A DNA stretch of 64,000 nucleotides from Roseobacter sinensis (GTDB taxonomy: Bacteria; Pseudomonadota; Alphaproteobacteria; Rhodobacterales; Rhodobacteraceae), in assembly GCF_025755255.1 (NCBI RefSeq), contig NZ_JALIEB010000012.1, positions 1-64,000 on the forward strand. The letters are read 5' to 3'. Shown piece after piece: positions 6,887 to 36,644 of this stretch. A program made the position numbers and the translations under genes. The notes under the pieces are model-generated. The model was not told the origin of the DNA. It made no database searches and worked only from the letters and a program-made list of their open reading frames with translations. How positions within the stretch are numbered: the first letter of the stretch is position 1; the number at the start of each line of letters is the position of its first letter.

Positions 6887-7665
6887 GCGCCGCCGCCCGG
6901 AACGAGGAAGCCGTGCTCGCGCAGATGCGCGCGCGCGGTGTCCGTTTGCAGAAAGGCCAGAAAGGAGCGGGCCGCCGGGGTGCCGCCGCCTGCGACGAGA
7001 GCGGCGGGGTAGGTGATGCGCGGGTGGCTTTCTGGCGGAAACTCGGCCAGCACCGCCACACGCGGCTCGGCCATGGCGTCGGTAGCATAGACCACGCCGA
7101 AGGCCGCGGCACCGGTGGCGACGAGGGCAAGCGCCGCCCGGACGTTGTCGGTTTGCGCCACCTGCGATGCGACCTTGTCCCAGAGGCCAAGGTGCGACAA
7201 GGCCGCTTTGCCGTAGATGCCAGCGGGCACCGCATCGACGAGCGCCATGGCAATCCGCCCTTGAGACAGCCGCGCACCAAGCTCCTCGGCGGTGGCGGCA
7301 ACCGGTGCGAGCGCGTCCTGCGTCACGATCACAAGCCGGTTGCTTGCGATCTCGACCCGGCTATCGGCTTCGATGGCATTGCGCGCCTCCAACCAGTCCA
7401 TCCAGTCGGCGCTTGCGGAGATCATGATATCGGCCGGGGCGCCGAGCGAAATCTGCCGGGCCAGCGCCGAGCTGCCCGCATAGGAAACGACGACGTCTTC
7501 CTCCGAAACCGCCGAAAAAGCGGTGACGATGTCGTCGAGGGCTGTCTTCAGGCTCGCGGCTGCAAAGACCGTGACGGGTTCGGCCCCTGCGGAGGTACCG
7601 ATCGACCACAGGCTCAGGCTCAGCGCCGCCGCCCACCGGCTCAGACGAGATCCTAGCCCGCCCAT
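6883..7665 (-). CDS. modA: Molybdate-binding periplasmic protein ModA
   Basis: A 260-residue exported binding protein with a signal peptide of about 27 residues (ending near TSAGAEP). The mature start VTVFAAASLKTALDDI and the segments SYAGSSALARQI and GAPADIMISAS are hallmark ModA sequences that line the molybdate site. GGAGG lies 4 nt before the ATG. First gene of modABC. The 209 bp upstream, shared with a divergent DNA glycosylase gene, should hold the promoter; I see no clear ModE-type palindrome there. Confidence 0.92.
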   Translation of the reverse strand: MGGLGSRLSRWAAALSLSLWSIGTSAGAEPVTVFAAASLKTALDDIVTAFSAVSEEDVVVSYAGSSALARQISLGAPADIMISASADWMDWLEARNAIEADSRVEIASNRLVIVTQDALAPVAATAEELGARLSQGRIAMALVDAVPAGIYGKAALSHLGLWDKVASQVAQTDNVRAALALVATGAAAFGVVYATDAMAEPRVAVLAEFPPESHPRITYPAALVAGGGTPAARSFLAFLQTDTARAHLREHGFLVPGGGA

Positions 7666-7874
7666 GGATCCTCCGGCAGAGGTCGGGCGAAGGGTATCGG
7701 ATCAAAGTTCCGGGGTGAAGTGCCGCGCGTCATGAGATCACAGTGTTGCACCGCCACGCAGGTTGCAAGGGGCGGCGCGCGCGCGATTTCCGCACAACCC
7801 GCTGTGCTTGATTTATCGTTCCGACGTCGGCGCGTTTCGGCTAGGGTCCTGTCCCAGTCGGAAGGAGGGCCGCC

Positions 7875-8543
7875 ATGCGCAGCTTGCAAGATATCCTCGC
7901 TATCAGCGTCGAGCGCAAAGGTTCGGAGGAGGCGATCTTGGACGGGATCACGCCACCGCGGAGCGCGGAGGCGTTGCGCGCCTGCCCGGATGACCGCTGG
8001 CTTGCAGCCATGACGCGGTCGATCTTCAACGCGGGGTTCAACTGGAAGGTGGTCGACAGCATGTGGCCGGGGTTCGAGACGGCCTTCCGGGGGTTCGACC
8101 CGGCGGCCTGCGCGATGATGGATGACGCCTGGTTCGACAGCCTGGTCACCGACACCTCGATCGTGCGGCACGGTCCCAAAATCCGCGCCGTGCAGGAAAA
8201 CGCTGTCTATCTGCAGACCCAGGCGGACACGCATGGAGGGTATGGCGCCTTCATCGCCGGGTGGCCGCCGGATCGCTTCGCGGATCTGTTGGCACATCTC
8301 AAGGCCGAGGGCACCCGGCTCGGCGGCGCCACGGGCCAGTACTTTCTGCGGTCGATGGGTGTGGACGGGTTCATTCTCTCCCGCGATGTGGTGGCCCGCC
8401 TGATCGCCGAAGGCGTGATCGACAAACCGCCGACCTCGAAAAGCGCCATGCAGGCGGTTCAGGCGGCGTTTTCCGCGTGGCATCGCAGTTCCGGCCGCCC
8501 CCTGACCGAGATCAGCCGGATCCTCGCGACGAGCATCGGCTAG
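7875..8543 (+). CDS. DNA-3-methyladenine glycosylase I-like protein
   Basis: A 222-residue cytoplasmic protein resembling DNA-3-methyladenine glycosylase I-type base-excision enzymes by overall helical pattern and segments such as FNAGFNWKVVDSMWPGFETAF and GQYFLRSMGVDGFILSRDVV. The classical Tag zinc-site Cys/His pattern is not obvious, so it is a divergent member. The ATG at 7875 has AAGGAGGG at good spacing. It runs divergently from modA and converges with arsJ (4-bp overlap). It probably stands alone as a repair gene; the exact lesion removed is uncertain. Confidence 0.65.
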   Translation: MRSLQDILAISVERKGSEEAILDGITPPRSAEALRACPDDRWLAAMTRSIFNAGFNWKVVDSMWPGFETAFRGFDPAACAMMDDAWFDSLVTDTSIVRHGPKIRAVQENAVYLQTQADTHGGYGAFIAGWPPDRFADLLAHLKAEGTRLGGATGQYFLRSMGVDGFILSRDVVARLIAEGVIDKPPTSKSAMQAVQAAFSAWHRSSGRPLTEISRILATSIG

Positions 8544-9805
8544 GCGTTCTGGGCCGTCAGCGGCCTTGCGATCACGCGCAGCCGCGCGGCCCCCAGCGCG
8601 CTGAGCGCCAGAAGCACAGCCGCCGTCCCCAGGCAGAGCGGCAGGCCACCGATCTGGTAGCTTGCGCCGGAGAGCACGGTGCCCAGCAGCCGGCCCGCCG
8701 CGTTGGCCATGTAGTAAAACCCCACATCCATCGTGACCCGCGCACCGCTGCTGAAGGCCAGAATCAGGTAGGAATGCAGCGCCGAGTTCACCGCAAAGAC
8801 CGCGCCGAACACCAAGAGCCCGACAATCAGCGTGACCGTCAGCCAAGTCGCCGGCTCCTGTGCGATGAGGCTCAGCATTGCCAGACCGGCCGGGATGACA
8901 ATCAGAGCCGAGACCCATCGGCGGGCGTCGCAGATGATCTCGGCTTCGGGCCGTTCCCTGGCCTTGAGCAGCTTCGGGGCCGCGGCTTGCACCGCACCGT
9001 AGAGGATGATCCACAACGCCATGAAGCTGCCGATGGTGAAGAAGGCCGCGCGGTTGCCTTCTGTCGTGCCGTCCGAGAGCACCGCATAGAAATAGATCGG
9101 GATGCCGACGACGAACCAGACGTCGCGGGCGGCGAAGAGGAACACACGGGCAAAGCTCAGCCAGTTCACATTGGCGTTCTTGGAGAAGACCTCGCGGAAC
9201 TTCGCATCCTTGCGGCCGGTGGGCAGCCCGGCAGGCATCTTCCAGACAATGACCGCGAGGATCACCGCCAGCATCGCCGCCATGCCAAGCACCGCGCCCG
9301 TCAGCCCCACCCAGCCCAGCAGGAGCGCACCGATCAGAAACCCCAGGCCCTTCACCGCGTTCTTCGAGCCGGTGAGAAGGGCGACCCAGCGAAAGAGCCC
9401 ACCCTGCTCGGAGGGGGCCAGCAGCTTCACCGCGGATTTCGCGCTCATCTTCGAAAGGTCCTTGGCCACGCCAGATGCGCCCTGCACGGCCATCACGAAG
9501 ACGACCGAGGCGGCGACGGTCCAGGACGGGTCAAGTTGGGCAAGCGCGATCAGCGCCGCGACCTGCAGCGCCAGCCCGGCATAAAGCGTCGAGGTCAGCC
9601 CAAAGCGCGCGGCGATCCAACCCGCGCTCAGGTTGGTGACCACGCCCGCAATCTCGTAAAGGACAAAGAGATAGGCCAGCTGCACCGGCGAAAAGCCCAA
9701 CGTATGGAAGTGCAGCAACACCAGCATGCGCAGGGCGCCATCGGTCAGCATGAAGGCCCAATAGGCCGCCGTCACTGCCACATAGGCCACGCCCGCGCGT
9801 TGCAT
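8540..9805 (-). CDS. arsJ: Organoarsenical efflux MFS transporter ArsJ
   Basis: A 421-residue major-facilitator-type membrane protein with about 12 hydrophobic segments. It follows a GAPDH gene by two bases in an operon with an ArsR-ArsC fusion. That is the known arsJ setting: GAPDH makes 1-arseno-3-phosphoglycerate from arsenate and glyceraldehyde-3-phosphate, and ArsJ exports it, after which it breaks down outside. The identification rests on the gene pair together with the sequence type (LTDGALRMLVLLHFHTLGF near the N-terminus). The ATG at 9805 was chosen because upstream in-frame sequence overlaps the GAPDH gene. Confidence 0.88.
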   Translation of the reverse strand: MQRAGVAYVAVTAAYWAFMLTDGALRMLVLLHFHTLGFSPVQLAYLFVLYEIAGVVTNLSAGWIAARFGLTSTLYAGLALQVAALIALAQLDPSWTVAASVVFVMAVQGASGVAKDLSKMSAKSAVKLLAPSEQGGLFRWVALLTGSKNAVKGLGFLIGALLLGWVGLTGAVLGMAAMLAVILAVIVWKMPAGLPTGRKDAKFREVFSKNANVNWLSFARVFLFAARDVWFVVGIPIYFYAVLSDGTTEGNRAAFFTIGSFMALWIILYGAVQAAAPKLLKARERPEAEIICDARRWVSALIVIPAGLAMLSLIAQEPATWLTVTLIVGLLVFGAVFAVNSALHSYLILAFSSGARVTMDVGFYYMANAAGRLLGTVLSGASYQIGGLPLCLGTAAVLLALSALGAARLRVIARPLTAQNA

Positions 9806-28778: not shown

Positions 28779-28923
28779 GCTTCGGCTGCCGGTGGCGCGC
28801 AGAAACCACATCGGCCGCAATTCGCCGACCCTCGGCGGCAAAATCTGAAATTGTGATTTGGTCCTGAGTGCGAAATGCGTGCACGTTTCGGAGAGACGCC
28901 AAGATGACCGGAGCGCCAGGGAC

Positions 28924-29301
28924 ATGAACCAAGCCGAAGCCATCCTCATGGGCCTGCGCATCTGGGGCAGCATCGGCGCGGTGGTTGCCGCGATTTTCCT
29001 GACCATCGGCATGGACCGGATCGATGAAGACGCGCGCGAGGCCTACATTTTTCGACCGCTGCTCATTCCTGGGGTCCTGGTGATCTGGCCGCTGGTGCTC
29101 TGGCGCTGGTACCTCTACGAGGGCGGCCGTGACCAGTGGGCGCGCCGATATGACCCGCCCCGCCGCGCCCATTTCGCGGTGGGTTGGCTTTTGCCCATCG
29201 GGATCTGTCTGATCATCCTTGCGGGTCTGAGCCAGCGTCAGACCTGGCCGGCCGATCTCGCGCCGGTCCAGCTCTCTGCCCCGGCGGAGGTGAGCCAATG
29301 A
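28924..29301 (+). CDS. Small membrane protein of the Rieske-ThDP cluster
   Basis: A 125-residue protein with three hydrophobic segments (about residues 8-27, 45-60 and 85-103) and a charged cytoplasmic loop. I recognise no family. The ATG at 28924 follows a GGAG-poor leader (CCAGGGAC). It is the first of five overlapping genes and overlaps the next by 4 bp. A structural role in a membrane redox complex is an inference from its position only. Confidence 0.75.
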   Translation: MNQAEAILMGLRIWGSIGAVVAAIFLTIGMDRIDEDAREAYIFRPLLIPGVLVIWPLVLWRWYLYEGGRDQWARRYDPPRRAHFAVGWLLPIGICLIILAGLSQRQTWPADLAPVQLSAPAEVSQ

Positions 29302-30356
29302 GCGTCAAGTACATCCCCGTGCAGTGGAATGCGAACAAGTACATCTACGATGCGGTGATGCTGCTGGGGGTGGGGTTGTTTCTCTACGTGTTCCTCTACG
29401 CGGCTCCCGGAATTCTCAGTCACGAGCGCCCGATCAACAGCCAAGTTCACACTGCGCGCGCCTTCGGGGCCTGCGCCTTCGTCATGCTCACGGTGATCCT
29501 CTGCATCGGACCTCTGGCGCGGCTCGATCCGCGGTTTCTGCCGCTCTTGTACAACCGCCGGCACTTCGGTGTGATGACCGCCTTCGTGGCGATCACCCAC
29601 GCGGGCTACATCGTGGATTGGTACTTTGCCTTCTCGGCTTCCAACAAGTACGAAGCCCTGCTTTTTGCAAACACGAGTTACGGCCAGCTCGCAGGCTTTC
29701 CGTTCGAGGCTTTCGGCATCTTCGCGCTCTTCACGCTGATCCTGCTGGCGGCGACGAGCCATGACTTCTGGATGAAATTCCTCAGCCCGCCGGTCTGGAA
29801 GCGCATCCACTACCTGATCTATCCCGCCTATCTTGCGGTGGTGGCGCATGTCTCTTTCGGCATCCTGCAGGACCAGCAGAACCACGCCTTCACGGCGATC
29901 TTCATTGGCGGTGCGGCGGCGGTGGGGGCCCTGCATCTGCTTGCGGCCCTGAAAGACCGCCGGACGGACGCGGCGCTCAAGGCCGACGCCGCCGACTGGG
30001 TACCTGTCTGCGATGTCTCCGAGATGAAGGACGGGTTTGCCAAGATCAAGCTCTTGGCCAATGGCGAGCGGGTTGCGGTCTATCTCAATGAAGGCAAGCT
30101 GAGCGCGATCTCCAATGCCTGCGCGCATCAGAACGGGCCGCTGGGCGAGGGGCGCATCATCGACTGTCTGGTGACCTGTCCCTGGCACGGGTTTCAGTAC
30201 GACGTGACCAACGGGCGCTCGCCTGCCCCCTTCACCGAAAAGATCCCGACCTACAATCTGAAGCTCAAGGGCACCGCTGTACTGGTCCATCCACAGGCCA
30301 ATGTGCCCGGTACCTATGTTGAACCGGTGCCTGTGCCGCAGGGAGGTCCGTCATGA
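29298..30356 (+). CDS. Ferric-reductase-like membrane protein with C-terminal Rieske domain
   Basis: A 352-residue protein. Residues 1 to about 220 hold about six hydrophobic segments with His at 51, 101, 155, 171 and 184, resembling the ferric reductase/MsrQ-type di-heme membrane domain. Residues from about 233 to 335 form a Rieske ferredoxin-like domain with ligands C275/H277 (CAHQNGPLG) and C294/H297 (CPWHGFQYD). A heme-bearing membrane segment joined to a Rieske domain suggests electron passage between a soluble partner and quinone or another membrane carrier. It overlaps both neighbours by 4 bp (ATGA), so it should be made together with the Rieske-ThDP enzyme. Confidence 0.85.
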   Translation: MSVKYIPVQWNANKYIYDAVMLLGVGLFLYVFLYAAPGILSHERPINSQVHTARAFGACAFVMLTVILCIGPLARLDPRFLPLLYNRRHFGVMTAFVAITHAGYIVDWYFAFSASNKYEALLFANTSYGQLAGFPFEAFGIFALFTLILLAATSHDFWMKFLSPPVWKRIHYLIYPAYLAVVAHVSFGILQDQQNHAFTAIFIGGAAAVGALHLLAALKDRRTDAALKADAADWVPVCDVSEMKDGFAKIKLLANGERVAVYLNEGKLSAISNACAHQNGPLGEGRIIDCLVTCPWHGFQYDVTNGRSPAPFTEKIPTYNLKLKGTAVLVHPQANVPGTYVEPVPVPQGGPS

Positions 30357-31111
30357 GCGAGAAGGACAGCTTCTTCGTTGGCTATCTGCCCGCCCCGAAG
30401 GCGCTGCGGGGGCTGTTGCTGGCGGTCTGCGTCCTGTTCGTCTCGGGACTTGCAGGGTTCGGATTGGCGCTTGGCGTCGCCCAGGACGATCCGGGGGATG
30501 GCGCCTTTCGCTTCGACTACGGGCGCCAGACCGTGACGGGGGTGGTCGAACTCACACCCTATCCGCTTCTGCGGGTGACCGAAGGCAATGAGCAGATCCC
30601 GGCGGGGCACACGCTGATGCTCGCAGGCGGCGGCAAGACCAACGTGGAGGATCGCGCGATCCCGCTGGAGGGGCAGCTCGCACAGGTTTCCGGTGTGATG
30701 TTGCAGCGGGGCGCGCTCGACATGTTGCAACTGCGCGGCGGTACCAATGGGATACAGGCAGCGGAAGGCGCAGCGCCCGAGATGGAGACGATCCCCCTTG
30801 GCCGCTGGAAGCTCGCCGGTGAGATCTGCGACGGCAAATGCCTCGCAGGTGCGATGCGCCCGGGGCGCGGGCTGGCGCACAAGGCCTGCGCCAACCTCTG
30901 CCTGCTGGGCAAGGTGCCGCCTGTCTTTGTCTCGACCCAGCCGGTGGACGGCTCGGAGTATCTGCTTGTCACCGGGCCGGATGGCGGGCATCTGCCCGAG
31001 ATCGCATACCACTACGTGGCGCAATATGTGTCGCTCGAAGGTGAGGTCGAGCGGCGGGGCGACCTGCTGGTGCTGCGCATGGACCCTGACACGCTGGAGG
31101 TCTTGCCGTGA
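30353..31111 (+). CDS. Membrane-anchored protein with C-x3-C...H-x2-C-x3-C signature
   Basis: A 252-residue protein with one N-terminal membrane segment (about residues 18-42) and a mostly soluble, probably periplasmic remainder. A conserved-looking patch holds C159, C163, H176, C179 and C183 (EICDGKCLAGAMRPG and LAHKACANLCLLGKVPP), which could bind a metal or cofactor. I cannot name the family with certainty. It overlaps the genes on either side by 4 bp. In the cluster it could be an electron carrier, a metallochaperone or an assembly factor. Confidence 0.75.
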   Translation: MSEKDSFFVGYLPAPKALRGLLLAVCVLFVSGLAGFGLALGVAQDDPGDGAFRFDYGRQTVTGVVELTPYPLLRVTEGNEQIPAGHTLMLAGGGKTNVEDRAIPLEGQLAQVSGVMLQRGALDMLQLRGGTNGIQAAEGAAPEMETIPLGRWKLAGEICDGKCLAGAMRPGRGLAHKACANLCLLGKVPPVFVSTQPVDGSEYLLVTGPDGGHLPEIAYHYVAQYVSLEGEVERRGDLLVLRMDPDTLEVLP

Positions 31112-31392
31112 TCCGCCGCATTCTGATGCTTGGTCTCGTTGCAGTGCTCGCCACGGCTTTCTTCTACCTCTCCCGCTTTTGGTATCTCTCGCTCTGGGAC
31201 AGGCCGGGGTTGTTGGGGTGGGAGGCCTTGCGCCCGCAGGGTGGCTTGGTCGGCCAATGGCTGCGCGGGACGAATGCGGCGCCGTTCGAATTGCTGATCT
31301 GGGCGCTGGGGTGTTTCGGGGTTCTGAGCCTCGTCCAGAAACTCTATGATGTGCTGAGCAAGCCACCCGAGACCGGAGAGCCACATGAGTGA
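31108..31392 (+). CDS. Small two-helix membrane protein of the Rieske-ThDP cluster
   Basis: A 94-residue protein with an N-terminal and a C-terminal hydrophobic segment (about residues 5-30 and 59-80) separated by a short polar part with conserved-looking Trp/Gly/Pro. It starts at a GTG that overlaps the previous stop (GTGA) and runs 8 bp into the ThDP enzyme gene. No family recognised. It is probably a subunit or anchor of the same membrane assembly. Confidence 0.7.
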   Translation: MIRRILMLGLVAVLATAFFYLSRFWYLSLWDRPGLLGWEALRPQGGLVGQWLRGTNAAPFELLIWALGCFGVLSLVQKLYDVLSKPPETGEPHE

Positions 31393-33364
31393 CGCATCCC
31401 TCGACTGGATCCGTGTCGGGCACACCGACGATCTGCCTGAGGGCCGGGTCAAGACGGTCACCGCGCGCACCACCTCGATCTGCCTGGTGCATTTCGATGG
31501 GCAATGGGCGGCCATGAACAACCACTGCCCGCATCAGCGCGGCCCGCTGGGCGAAGGCTCGATCGAAAAGGGCATCGATGACAAATGCTGGATCCGCTGC
31601 CCGTGGCACGGCTGGGATTTCGACCCGCTGACCGGCAAACCGCCCGGCGGGCATGAAGACACCGGGCAGCAGATGTATCCCGTGGACATCCGCGACAGCG
31701 AAATCTTCGTCGGGATCGCGCCCGAGCCGCCGCATGAGCGCACGGTCACGGATGTCATGGTCGAGACGCTGACCAACTGGGGGGTGCAATCCGTCTTCGG
31801 GATGGTGGGGCATTCGAACCTCGGGCTTTCCGACGCGATCCGGCGGGCCGTTGTGGATGGCCGGATGTCGTATTTCGGCATCCGACATGAAGGTGCCGCG
31901 GCCTTCGCCGCATCGGCCTACGGTAAGCTCACCGGCACACCCGCGGTGTGCCTGACCATTGCAGGGCCGGGGGCCACCAACTTGCTCACCGGGCTCTGGG
32001 ACGCGAAGGTGGACCGCGCGCCGGTGCTGGCAATGACGGGCCAAGTGCAGACCCAGGTGATGGGGCCGGGGGCCTTCCAGGACATCGACCTTCTGTCGGC
32101 GTTTGAGGCGGTGACCCGCTTTTCACAGCCCGTTCTCGACAGCTCCAACCACGCAGAGCTGGCCTCGCTGGCCTGCAAGACGGCGATTGTCGAGCAGAAC
32201 GTGGCGCATCTGATCTTCCCCGACGATGTACAGACGAACCCCTCGGACAAACCCGCAAGCGGCCCCGAGGGGCGTATTTCCGCCGCCCCGGTCACGCCGG
32301 CGCAAAGCGAGATCGAGAGGGTGGCCGAGATGCTGCGGGCAGCCAAACGCCCGATCATCGTTGTGGGTCATGGCGCGTACCCTGTTCGCGGCCAGATCGC
32401 TGCGCTCGCCAAAGCCCTCGGCGCGCCGGTGCTGACGACCTTCAAGGCCAAGGGGCTGGTGCCGGACGATCATACCTGTGCCGCGGGCGTGCTGGGGCGC
32501 TCGGGCACGCCGATCGCAAGTTGGTTCATGAACGAGGCGGACCTGATCCTGGCCCTCGGGACAAGCTTTTCGAACCACACCGGGATCGAGCGCAGCAAGA
32601 CCATCATCCAGGTCGATCACGAGCGGATGCAGCTCGGCAAGTTCCATCCCGTGGCGCTGCCGGTCTGGGGGGATGTGGGCGCCTTCTGCACAGCTCTTCG
32701 GGATGTGCCTTGCACGCATCCGGAGGCCGAGGACCAGATCACCGAACTGGCCGAGCGCTGGGCGATCTGGCGGCGTGAAAAGCAGCACCGGCTGCAGGAG
32801 GACGCGGGGCGTGGCGTCCATTCCTTCGCGATCTTCGATGTGCTGGGCCAATTGGTGCCGGAGAACACCATCTTCGCGGTGGATGTCGGCAACAACACCT
32901 ATTCCTTCGGCCGCTATCTGGAAACAAAAGGCCGCCAGCGGGTCCTGATGTCGGGCTATCTCGGCTCCATCGGCTTTGGCCTGCCCGCCGCCATGGGCGC
33001 CTGGGCCGCCACGCAGGACAAGGACGATCTGAAGGGCTGCAAGGTGGTGTCGATCTCCGGCGATGGCGGCTTTGGGCAGTACCCGATGGAGTTCACCACG
33101 GCGGTGAAGTACGGCATGGATCTCACCCATATCCTGCTGCACAACGGCGAGCTGGGGAAGATCTCGAAAGAGCAGCGTTCGGGCGAGTGGCCGGTCTGGG
33201 AAACGGATCTGCACAACCCCGGCTTTGCCGCTTTTGCACGCCTTTGCGGCGGCTACGGCGTGAAGGTCACCGAGCCGGATGATCTGCAAGCCGCGATCCG
33301 CGATGCGCTGGCGCATAAGGGCCCCGCGCTGGTGGAGATCATGACCGACGCAGAGCTTGTCTGA
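31385..33364 (+). CDS. Rieske [2Fe-2S] domain fused to a ThDP-dependent pyruvate-oxidase-like enzyme
   Basis: A 659-residue fusion. Residues 1 to about 110 are a Rieske domain with C48/H50 (CPHQRGPLG) and C72/H75 (CPWHGWDF). Residues from about 118 to 659 have the three-domain layout of pyruvate oxidase/acetolactate synthase-type enzymes: ThDP-activating Glu169 in RHEGAAAFAASAYGKLTG, a central Rossmann-like domain, and the ThDP-Mg motif GDGGF (559-563) with N587. The expected chemistry is decarboxylation or oxidation of a 2-oxo acid or related substrate. The attached Rieske cluster suggests that electrons leave one at a time to the Rieske/heme membrane partner encoded upstream. The substrate is unknown. 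There is no frameshift at the domain junction. Confidence 0.88.
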   Translation: MSDASLDWIRVGHTDDLPEGRVKTVTARTTSICLVHFDGQWAAMNNHCPHQRGPLGEGSIEKGIDDKCWIRCPWHGWDFDPLTGKPPGGHEDTGQQMYPVDIRDSEIFVGIAPEPPHERTVTDVMVETLTNWGVQSVFGMVGHSNLGLSDAIRRAVVDGRMSYFGIRHEGAAAFAASAYGKLTGTPAVCLTIAGPGATNLLTGLWDAKVDRAPVLAMTGQVQTQVMGPGAFQDIDLLSAFEAVTRFSQPVLDSSNHAELASLACKTAIVEQNVAHLIFPDDVQTNPSDKPASGPEGRISAAPVTPAQSEIERVAEMLRAAKRPIIVVGHGAYPVRGQIAALAKALGAPVLTTFKAKGLVPDDHTCAAGVLGRSGTPIASWFMNEADLILALGTSFSNHTGIERSKTIIQVDHERMQLGKFHPVALPVWGDVGAFCTALRDVPCTHPEAEDQITELAERWAIWRREKQHRLQEDAGRGVHSFAIFDVLGQLVPENTIFAVDVGNNTYSFGRYLETKGRQRVLMSGYLGSIGFGLPAAMGAWAATQDKDDLKGCKVVSISGDGGFGQYPMEFTTAVKYGMDLTHILLHNGELGKISKEQRSGEWPVWETDLHNPGFAAFARLCGGYGVKVTEPDDLQAAIRDALAHKGPALVEIMTDAELV

Positions 33365-35930: not shown

Positions 35931-36644
35931 ATGAGACTGTCATCACCAATCTACGCACTCAAGCGTCAAGCAAAATTGCTGGCACGTGACAACGATATTA
36001 GGCTCCACGCGGCACTGAACCAAATTGCCACCAAAGAGGGCTTCAATGATTGGAGCCACTTGGCGTCCAGTCACTCCAAAGCGACACCAGCAAAGGAAAT
36101 CATGAGCCAGTTCAATCCAGGCGATATGATGCTTATCGGTGCGCGCCCCGGCCACGGTAAGACCCTTCTTGGATTGGAACTGACTGCGCTGGCAGAGAAG
36201 AACAATCGCGCAGGCTATGTTTTCTCCTTGGACTACAATGAAGCCGATGTCTGGGACCGGTTTGAAAAACTCGGTTTCGATCCGAAGGAACATAACCGTT
36301 CAATCGTCGTTGATACCTCGGACGATATCTGTGCGGCACATATCATTGAACGCATCAGCAATGCGCCGGATCGTGCATTCGCCGTTGTCGATTACATGCA
36401 GCTCTTGGATCAAAAGCGAAGCAACCCTCCGCTTGATGAACAAGTCCGGGCACTTAAGAGATTTGCAACCGAGCGAGGGGCGATTGTTGTCGTGATCTCA
36501 CAGATCGACCGTGCTTTTGAGCTGACTTCAACTGACATGCCAAGCATTGAGGACATACGGCTGCCAAACCCCGTCGATCTGTCACTTTTCGATAAGCGAT
36601 GTTTCCTTAATGACGGCCAAGTTCAACTAGCGACGGCAGCCTAA
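35931..36644 (+). CDS. Small DnaB/RecA-like ATPase with short N-terminal domain
   Basis: A 237-residue protein. Residues 1 to about 45 (LKRQAKLLARDNDIRLHAALNQIATKEGFNDWSHLAS) form a short helical module similar to one found at the N-termini of certain alphaproteobacterial glyoxalase-like proteins. The rest is a RecA-type ATPase with Walker A GARPGHGKT, Walker B FAVVDYMQLLD and a VVVISQIDR strand, as in DnaB-type helicases but far shorter. AAGGAGG lies 6 nt upstream. It is AT-richer than its neighbours and opens the mobile region. The role is unknown; a plasmid or phage replication remnant or a nucleic-acid-dependent regulator is possible. Confidence 0.75.
   Translation: MRLSSPIYALKRQAKLLARDNDIRLHAALNQIATKEGFNDWSHLASSHSKATPAKEIMSQFNPGDMMLIGARPGHGKTLLGLELTALAEKNNRAGYVFSLDYNEADVWDRFEKLGFDPKEHNRSIVVDTSDDICAAHIIERISNAPDRAFAVVDYMQLLDQKRSNPPLDEQVRALKRFATERGAIVVVISQIDRAFELTSTDMPSIEDIRLPNPVDLSLFDKRCFLNDGQVQLATAA

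Follow-up and report, generated by a model that had tools for sequence, protein, structure and literature searches.

The window analysed here is a stretch of 64,000 nucleotides from Roseobacter sinensis (NCBI RefSeq assembly GCF_025755255.1, contig NZ_JALIEB010000012.1, positions 1 to 64,000 of the forward strand), in which positions 28924-33364 hold five open reading frames (ORFs), here called genes A to E, that overlap in this order by 4, 4, 4 and 8 bp (Table 1). The source genome is 4.9 Mb in 77 contigs with a completeness of 99.58%, and its nearest named relatives are titled Roseobacter, with B proteins of up to 92% identity. A first-pass annotation had described the five genes as a membrane redox module whose two soluble ends each have a Rieske cluster; the ORFs and their Pfam matches agree with the overlaps and domains it named, and the cluster ligands of the Rieske domains in B and E are invariant. 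The grouping is not chance, since nearly all the relatives compared keep A-B-C in this order and the Rieske ligands of B and E do not vary. No Pfam family scored above its cut-off for A, C or D.

Table 1. Coordinates of the genes, domains and sites of the locus within the window.
Feature	Position	Strand	Details
Gene A, small membrane protein	28924..29301	+	125 aa; 3 predicted transmembrane helices
Gene B, ferric-reductase-domain heme protein with C-terminal Rieske domain	29298..30356	+	352 aa; Pfam, AlphaFold2, Foldseek
B Rieske domain, residues 233-319, predicted cytoplasmic; ligands C275, H277, C294, H297	29994..30254	+	Pfam
Gene C, one transmembrane helix and a probably periplasmic beta (OB-like) part	30353..31111	+	252 aa; AlphaFold2
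C candidate metal/redox site, C163, M168, H176, C179, C183 and D160	30827..30901	+	Invariant 105/105
Gene D, small membrane protein, 2 predicted transmembrane helices, GTG start	31108..31392	+	94 aa; hydropathy
Gene E, soluble Rieske-thiamine diphosphate (ThDP) enzyme	31385..33364	+	659 aa; Pfam; no transmembrane helix
E Rieske domain, residues 8-86; ligands C48, H50, C72, H75	31406..31642	+	Pfam; invariant 64/64
E ThDP (pyruvate-oxidase-like) part, residues 120-652; E169, D560, K592 invariant 64/64	31742..33340	+	
TGTGATTTGG, upstream element, possible promoter or operator of the operon	28852..28861	+	Consensus match

Homologues of B were found in 15 of 289 alphaproteobacterial genomes (the class draw, E-value threshold 1e-15) and in 7 of 398 genomes of the phylum (1e-25, all of the same class), the R. 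sinensis genome included in both counts. Gene neighborhoods were compared around the best 80 of 335 relatives of B on GTDB contigs, or 79 once L108, which overlaps L024, was dropped; these named loci are close relatives (B identity at least 59%), and the denominators given for them count loci with enough flank. A second set comprised 28 further loci outside the named set. Co-occurrence was counted in a family draw of 219 genomes, one per genus, or 218 once the R. sinensis genome (G000) was left out. L-numbers refer to loci around homologues and G-numbers to genomes of the draws, both being labels of this analysis.

Gene A lies directly upstream of B in 79/79 named and 26/28 further loci, and C directly downstream of B in 77/77 and 27/28, respectively. 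D follows C in 76/76 named loci and, as recognized by sequence, in 8/28 further loci, a small hydrophobic ORF being present after C in 22 of the 27 further loci that have C. Among plasmid records, B (1e-40) and C (1e-3) are both found in the same five Rhizobium plasmids and in no others. From this recurrence beside B and the shared plasmids, A-B-C and a D-like protein are the conserved unit and E is facultative: it is directly downstream on the same strand in 33/71 named loci and 1/27 further loci, whereas six more named loci and L026 have it upstream, on one strand or the other and no more than about 5.3 kb away. The first-pass annotation had taken all five genes as the unit and named conservation of their order across Rhodobacterales as a check, which holds for A-B-C-D and not for E; the wider system adds a gene F and often an antiporter gene N, both described below. 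R44 and W55 of A are present in all 106 aligned homologues. In three loci on Rhizobium plasmids (L180, L181, L199) A-B-C-D-like genes are accompanied by an oppositely oriented ThDP gene some 3 kb upstream, which has no Rieske domain (by comparison in L180, by length in L181 and L199); the L180 gene, 25% identical to E, was rejected as an E orthologue. DsbD/DsbA-like genes lie nearby in L199 and a CopD gene in both L181 and L199.

B matches Ferric_reduct (PF01794; 1.8e-11, 44.6 bits against a cut-off of 28) and Rieske (5e-16) in Pfam. Its four Rieske ligands (CxH...CxxH) are invariant in 108/108 homologues, as are R87, R88, H89, H101, H155, H171 and H184. In YedZ, according to the available part of PMC3591440, an arginine replaces the first heme histidine and three further histidines are retained; R87, H101, H171 and H184 of B may correspond to this pattern, as mapped by spacing and not by a joint alignment with YedZ, and H89 is an extra invariant residue. 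The AlphaFold2 model (predicted local distance difference test [pLDDT] 76.5, predicted template modelling score [pTM] 0.61) has six long helices (14-39, 48-76, 87-109, 136-152, 174-192, 196-228) followed by the Rieske beta domain, and simple hydropathy, which missed one helix relative to the model, gave five. Foldseek returned the carbazole-dioxygenase ferredoxin (1.2e-6) as the closest fold to the Rieske part and, weakly, STEAP2 (7.4e-4) for the membrane part, with STEAP1, STEAP4 and NOX5 weaker still. From charged loops assessed by simple hydropathy and charge, and for B also from its predicted helices, the Rieske domain of B is predicted to be cytoplasmic and the domain of C to lie outside. 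The flavin adenine dinucleotide (FAD)/NAD(P)H dehydrogenase domain that is a feature of NOX/FRE proteins is absent from B, the C-terminal domain being Rieske; B scores 31 bits against the curated MsrQ model (cut-off 130); and no MsrP molybdoenzyme lies beside it, A, C and D being its immediate neighbors in nearly every locus (MsrP was not looked for in other places). Because the Rieske part of B most resembles ferredoxins that dock on Rieske oxygenases, Rieske-to-Rieske transfer between B and a partner protein is plausible.

C is modelled as one helix followed mostly by strands (pLDDT 85.5). The six residues of its candidate site are invariant in 105/105 homologues; C159 is invariant in a 39-sequence set and not in the set of 105. 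A fold search gave weak matches, OB-fold proteins among them, with none at an E-value of 0.001 or lower, and a sequence profile of C against solved structures likewise gave none at that level. The best profile match, a Stage 0 sporulation protein, reached 0.013 and was not taken as homology, nor was a fold-search match to the copper chaperone SilF (0.16) taken as evidence.

In E, a Rieske domain (2.3e-17) is followed by three TPP_enzyme domains, each at 3e-32 or better, and no transmembrane helix is predicted. Its Rieske ligands are invariant in 64/64 homologues, as are E169, D411, D560 and K592, in a set that includes haloarchaeal and Mycobacteroides copies. The best known-structure match is Escherichia coli PoxB (3eya, 3.2e-63), the NCBIfam relative of which is named ubiquinone-dependent pyruvate dehydrogenase, with E itself below the curated cut-offs of the pyruvate oxidase model NF006377 (372/742 bits) and of NF006591 (301/792 bits). 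As the alignment stops at residue 528 of the 572 in PoxB and E ends four residues beyond it, the C-terminal, membrane-binding tail of PoxB is missing from E. K592 occupies the position of F465 in PoxB (numbering from the E-PoxB alignment), and none of the five ThDP paralogues in the R. sinensis genome has a lysine there; this invariant lysine, not shared by the paralogues, suggests that the substrate of E is probably not plain pyruvate.

Among the class-draw genomes that have E and no B, extra N-terminal Fe-S domains are fused to E in 5/6 (CDGSH in all five, Fer4_19 in four), whereas the frame exceeds E by no more than 73 aa, judged by length only, in the sixth (G003) and in seven genomes with B, R. 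sinensis included. Since fusions mark five of the six genomes without B and no long frame occurs in the seven with it, membrane partner and fused clusters look as if they were alternatives. CDGSH-fused E homologues are located at L184:5988-8648 (- strand) and L186:5558-8191 (+ strand), as well as in L185, L187 and L182. An IlvD/EDD dehydratase gene adjoins those in L184 and L186 and was considered as a clue to a 2-oxo acid substrate; it is a hint only, both loci being from one family (f130).

Gene F of the relatives (e.g. L043:6020-7630, 536 aa) encodes an N-terminal Rieske domain and a flavin mononucleotide (FMN) glutamate-synthase-like barrel (PF01645, 4.5e-91). In a family search at 0.001 only Glu_synthase, Rieske and FMN_dh were matched, and no glutaminase domain was found. 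C451, C457 and C462 of F stand at [3Fe-4S] spacing and are invariant in 57 homologues, and the Rieske CxH...CxxH ligands are invariant in 57/57 aligned homologues, a set outside which the short L047 copy falls. F is directly upstream of A in 36/74 named and 3/27 further loci, and the full order F-A-B-C-D-E is present in 25/69 named loci. No F was found in the R. sinensis genome, the closest matches being a 37% paralogue that covers F residues 143-535 and two weaker ones. N, a cation/proton antiporter gene (Na_H_Exchanger), stands before F in 16 named loci, a place it never takes without F (70 loci); groups of the form N-F or F-E-N are seen apart from B as well (L125, L128, L192, L193). F homologues that have no Rieske domain are about 70% identical to F over residues 132-535, and the one copy tested (L138) has two CDGSH domains instead. 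This L138 copy (7335-8867) lies near pirin, glutathione S-transferase (GST) and hemerythrin genes, with gene clusters that L122 and L139 also have. At L047:2957-4470, in a Roseobacter metagenome-assembled genome, F is decaying, part of the Rieske domain having been lost and one cluster cysteine changed.

The family draw contains 20 genomes with B, 13 with E and 36 with F when R. sinensis is counted; 18 of the F copies are full-length with the Rieske part, G450, where F is in two pieces, not being counted among them. In the 218 other genomes, B and E occur together in 11 vs 1.0 expected, E and F in 11 vs 1.0, and B and F in 12 vs 1.6. The class draw (288 genomes, R. sinensis left out) has 14 genomes with B, 12 with E and 7 with full-length F, and every pair shares 6. 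E and F are within 7 kb of each other in 9 of the 11 family-draw genomes with both; F-E pairs lie away from B in G289, G399, G400, G438 and G495, with no B in G400 at the threshold used, and 6/18 genomes with full-length F have no B. Genes found apart and without co-occurrence, which the first-pass annotation had named as evidence against its module, are seen in the first respect and not in the second: in the family draw without R. sinensis, B and E are within 7 kb in 5/11 genomes that have both, and 11/12 genomes with E have B.

E was matched on 157 plasmid records at 1e-60; among the 30 matches listed, the Rieske part is covered by the five best, four of them haloarchaeal (56-58% identity) and one from Mycobacteroides (52%). 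Full-length F is found on 3 of the 8 plasmid records matched at 1e-80, all three haloarchaeal, with E, and at 61% identity. B was not found on the haloarchaeal E/F plasmids at 1e-40, chromosomes not having been searched. In Halorarius a sodium:proton antiporter gene follows E, its product being distant from N (29.5% over about 100 residues). On the haloarchaeal plasmids of L196, L197 and L198, F, with E nearby, is surrounded by genes for sulfur carriers and thiol redox proteins: DsrE, TusA, rhodanese and YeeE/YedE near F on the Halorubrum plasmid, a MerA-like gene on all three, and pirin on two.

Building on the observed gene order, domains, invariant ligands and co-occurrence, our best explanation, which we hold tentatively and short of even confidence, is that A-B-C-D is a transmembrane electron carrier fed Rieske-to-Rieske by E, and elsewhere also by F, that passes electrons outward through heme to C. 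Such a carrier would be of the YedZ/STEAP/NOX kind, with a Rieske [2Fe-2S] domain replacing the flavin dehydrogenase, and the predicted cytoplasmic Rieske domain of B would dock on those of its partner enzymes, E here and F as well in relatives. A precedent for this contact is the carbazole-dioxygenase ferredoxin, solved, by the titles of the structure entries, in complex with its Rieske oxygenase. E would probably decarboxylate a 2-oxo acid oxidatively, and electrons would leave the ThDP adduct, possibly by way of FAD, for the Rieske cluster of E and then that of B, and go on to a putative heme b at H101/H184 and perhaps a second at H89/H171, and at the outer side to the Cys/Met/His site of C and an extracytoplasmic acceptor. 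We infer the outward direction from the behavior of the ferric reductase domain (FRD) superfamily, most relatives of the membrane domain being described, in the available part of PMC3591440, as transferring electrons across the membrane. A broader and more doubtful version sees the set as a modular system, respiratory or reductive and so far undescribed, with the Rieske domain as a shared plug on cytosolic enzymes of unrelated chemistry (E, F) and as the socket on a transmembrane heme protein, B, which would reduce a new kind of periplasmic Cys/Met/His metalloprotein, C; in some lineages that lack the membrane unit, CDGSH and 4Fe-4S domains would take over as plug or socket.

Several observations weigh against this explanation. 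The confidence of the B model is moderate by the scores given above, and the hypergeometric p-values of the co-occurrence ignore phylogeny. A-B-C occurs without E or full-length F in 6/19 B genomes of the family draw, and 8/14 B genomes of the class draw have neither E nor F, so that A-B-C must work with different partners or serve a different function. E and F in turn occur without B on haloarchaeal plasmids (1e-40) and in G400, and E also in six class-draw genomes; the idea that fused clusters and the membrane partner are alternatives does not hold for G003, G400 or the haloarchaeal copies, where the frame is not long and B is absent from the genome or record that was searched. The proposed partner or acceptor of C is without a known candidate.

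Electrons from E (and F) might instead, along the lines of the first-pass annotation, pass through the Rieske domain and heme of B to the quinone pool, C and the small subunits only building a quinone site. PoxB as the best structural match of E, the ubiquinone-dependent name of the NCBIfam relative of PoxB, and the listing of MsrPQ, the system of a B relative, with quinone in the available part of PMC9045290 are all consistent with this route; we nevertheless consider it unlikely, as it leaves the invariant site of C unexplained and the FRD proteins in the available part of PMC3591440 are described as carrying electrons across the membrane. Less likely again is that E and F are paired enzymes served by a soluble acceptor, with a possible role in redox or electrophile stress, and are tied to A-B-C-D by co-regulation only. 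The five F-E pairs away from B would fit such a pair, as would the company these genes keep: mercuric-reductase/lipoamide-dehydrogenase-like flavoproteins, DsrE, pirin, thioredoxin and GST-like genes in the haloarchaeal E/F plasmid regions, DsbD/DsbA-like, peroxiredoxin-like and GST genes near A-B-C of Rhizobium binae, and pirin, GST and hemerythrin genes beside the CDGSH homologue of F. The operon fusion, the co-occurrence with B at one genome per genus, and the matching Rieske domains on E and B argue against it. Glutamate synthase, a relative of the F barrel, works reductively with electron flow from [3Fe-4S] to FMN, and Rieske oxygenases normally receive electrons from Rieske ferredoxins, whereas pyruvate-oxidase-type ThDP enzymes act, on balance, as electron donors. 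Inward flow, from a quinol or a periplasmic donor at C through B to cytosolic E and F for reductive chemistry, would draw on the first two of these facts and is improbable on the third, FRD relatives moreover operating outward in the available part of PMC3591440.

The element TGTGATTTGG ends 62 bp before the start of A and occurs exactly once in the window, with 6 matches vs 3.26 expected when up to one mismatch is allowed. Its counterpart GTGATTTGG is present before A in L038-L042 (5/105 A upstream regions) and before F in L043-L045, L052 and L071 (5/64 F upstream regions); a looser pattern is found in 7 A, 6 F and 2/129 E upstream regions, against a background of about 0.009 per 260 nt. These consensus matches before A or F suggest that the Roseobacter operon may begin a short way before its first gene, separately from tct. 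The flanking genes, named from their translations alone, we take to be TctCBA (25.6-28.8 kb) and TupBCA (33.4-35.7 kb). In 10/79 named loci (L038-L047), all titled Roseobacter, the unit has close homologues of tct and tup next to it, and E is absent from four of these loci (L040, L042, L046, L047). Other loci have only weak matches, tctA at 33% in L109 and tupC at about 30% in many, the latter being uninformative as this level is expected of any ATP-binding-cassette ATPase. The case for an imported carboxylate, drawn in the first-pass annotation from these transporters, is therefore weak, and a coupling to carboxylate or tungstate was rejected, the neighbors being confined to the ten loci with or without E. 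Nor did the neighbors of stand-alone F and E give a common theme among the 19 proteins searched: besides two antiporters and one D homologue they include phosphoribosyl pyrophosphate synthase, a beta-eliminating lyase, a mandelate-racemase-like protein, ribonucleotide reductase, a xylose-isomerase-like protein, a coenzyme A transferase, fructose-bisphosphatase, PALP, an aminotransferase, uracil glycosylase, a methyltransferase, an HI0933-like protein and hydrolases. Downstream of the tungstate transporter genes, at 35931-36644, a small stand-alone ORF encodes what we take by eye to resemble a DnaB/RecA-type ATPase.

B resembles MsrQ/YedZ (the membrane subunit of MsrPQ), STEAP and NOX/FRE in its Ferric_reduct domain, possibly YedZ-like heme residues and likely transmembrane electron transfer; unlike MsrQ/YedZ and NOX, which have a flavin dehydrogenase or nothing in that place, it carries a C-terminal Rieske domain and is encoded with A, C and D. 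E shares the full-length ThDP fold, ThDP glutamate and GDG motif of PoxB and other pyruvate oxidases, and differs from PoxB in its N-terminal Rieske domain, the lack of the C-terminal tail and K592 in place of F465. F has the PF01645 barrel and [3Fe-4S]-spaced cysteines of FMN glutamate synthase with an N-terminal Rieske domain and no glutaminase domain found, and its Rieske-less homologues correspond to it over residues 132-535, one of them, a CDGSH-Glu_synthase fusion, having two CDGSH domains in place of Rieske. Ferredoxin/oxygenase pairs such as carbazole 1,9a-dioxygenase, home of the closest fold to the B Rieske domain, use the same two-protein Rieske-to-Rieske transfer, but neither B nor E/F resembles an oxygenase and here one partner is membrane-bound. 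The combination of FRD and Rieske seen in B is noted as bacterial architecture M4 in the available part of PMC3591440, where the legend names FMN for M4 too, with no mention of A, C, D, E or F. The available part of PMC5859297 records CDGSH with Glu_synthase, Fer4_19 or Rieske, Rieske fused to Glu_synthase not being among the combinations found there, and that of PMC9045290 has MsrPQ and glutamate synthase in their ordinary forms. The domain types are thus already known and single pieces are in print; in agreement with the first-pass annotation, which knew of no such system, no description of the A-F set was found in searches of an open-access library, most subscription papers lying outside this coverage.

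The gene fusions, the invariant sites and the small operon make the system directly testable, and its E and F enzymes are common to Alphaproteobacteria and haloarchaea. To our knowledge, and in part according to PMC3591440 and PMC9045290, the characterized transmembrane heme proteins of the NOX/STEAP/MsrQ group take electrons from flavins or quinols. If the proposed route is true, a Rieske-fed branch wired to two Rieske-tagged enzymes would add an input to this group, C would be a new candidate family of periplasmic metalloproteins, and two uncharacterized enzyme families, Rieske-ThDP and Rieske-Glu_synthase, would be defined.

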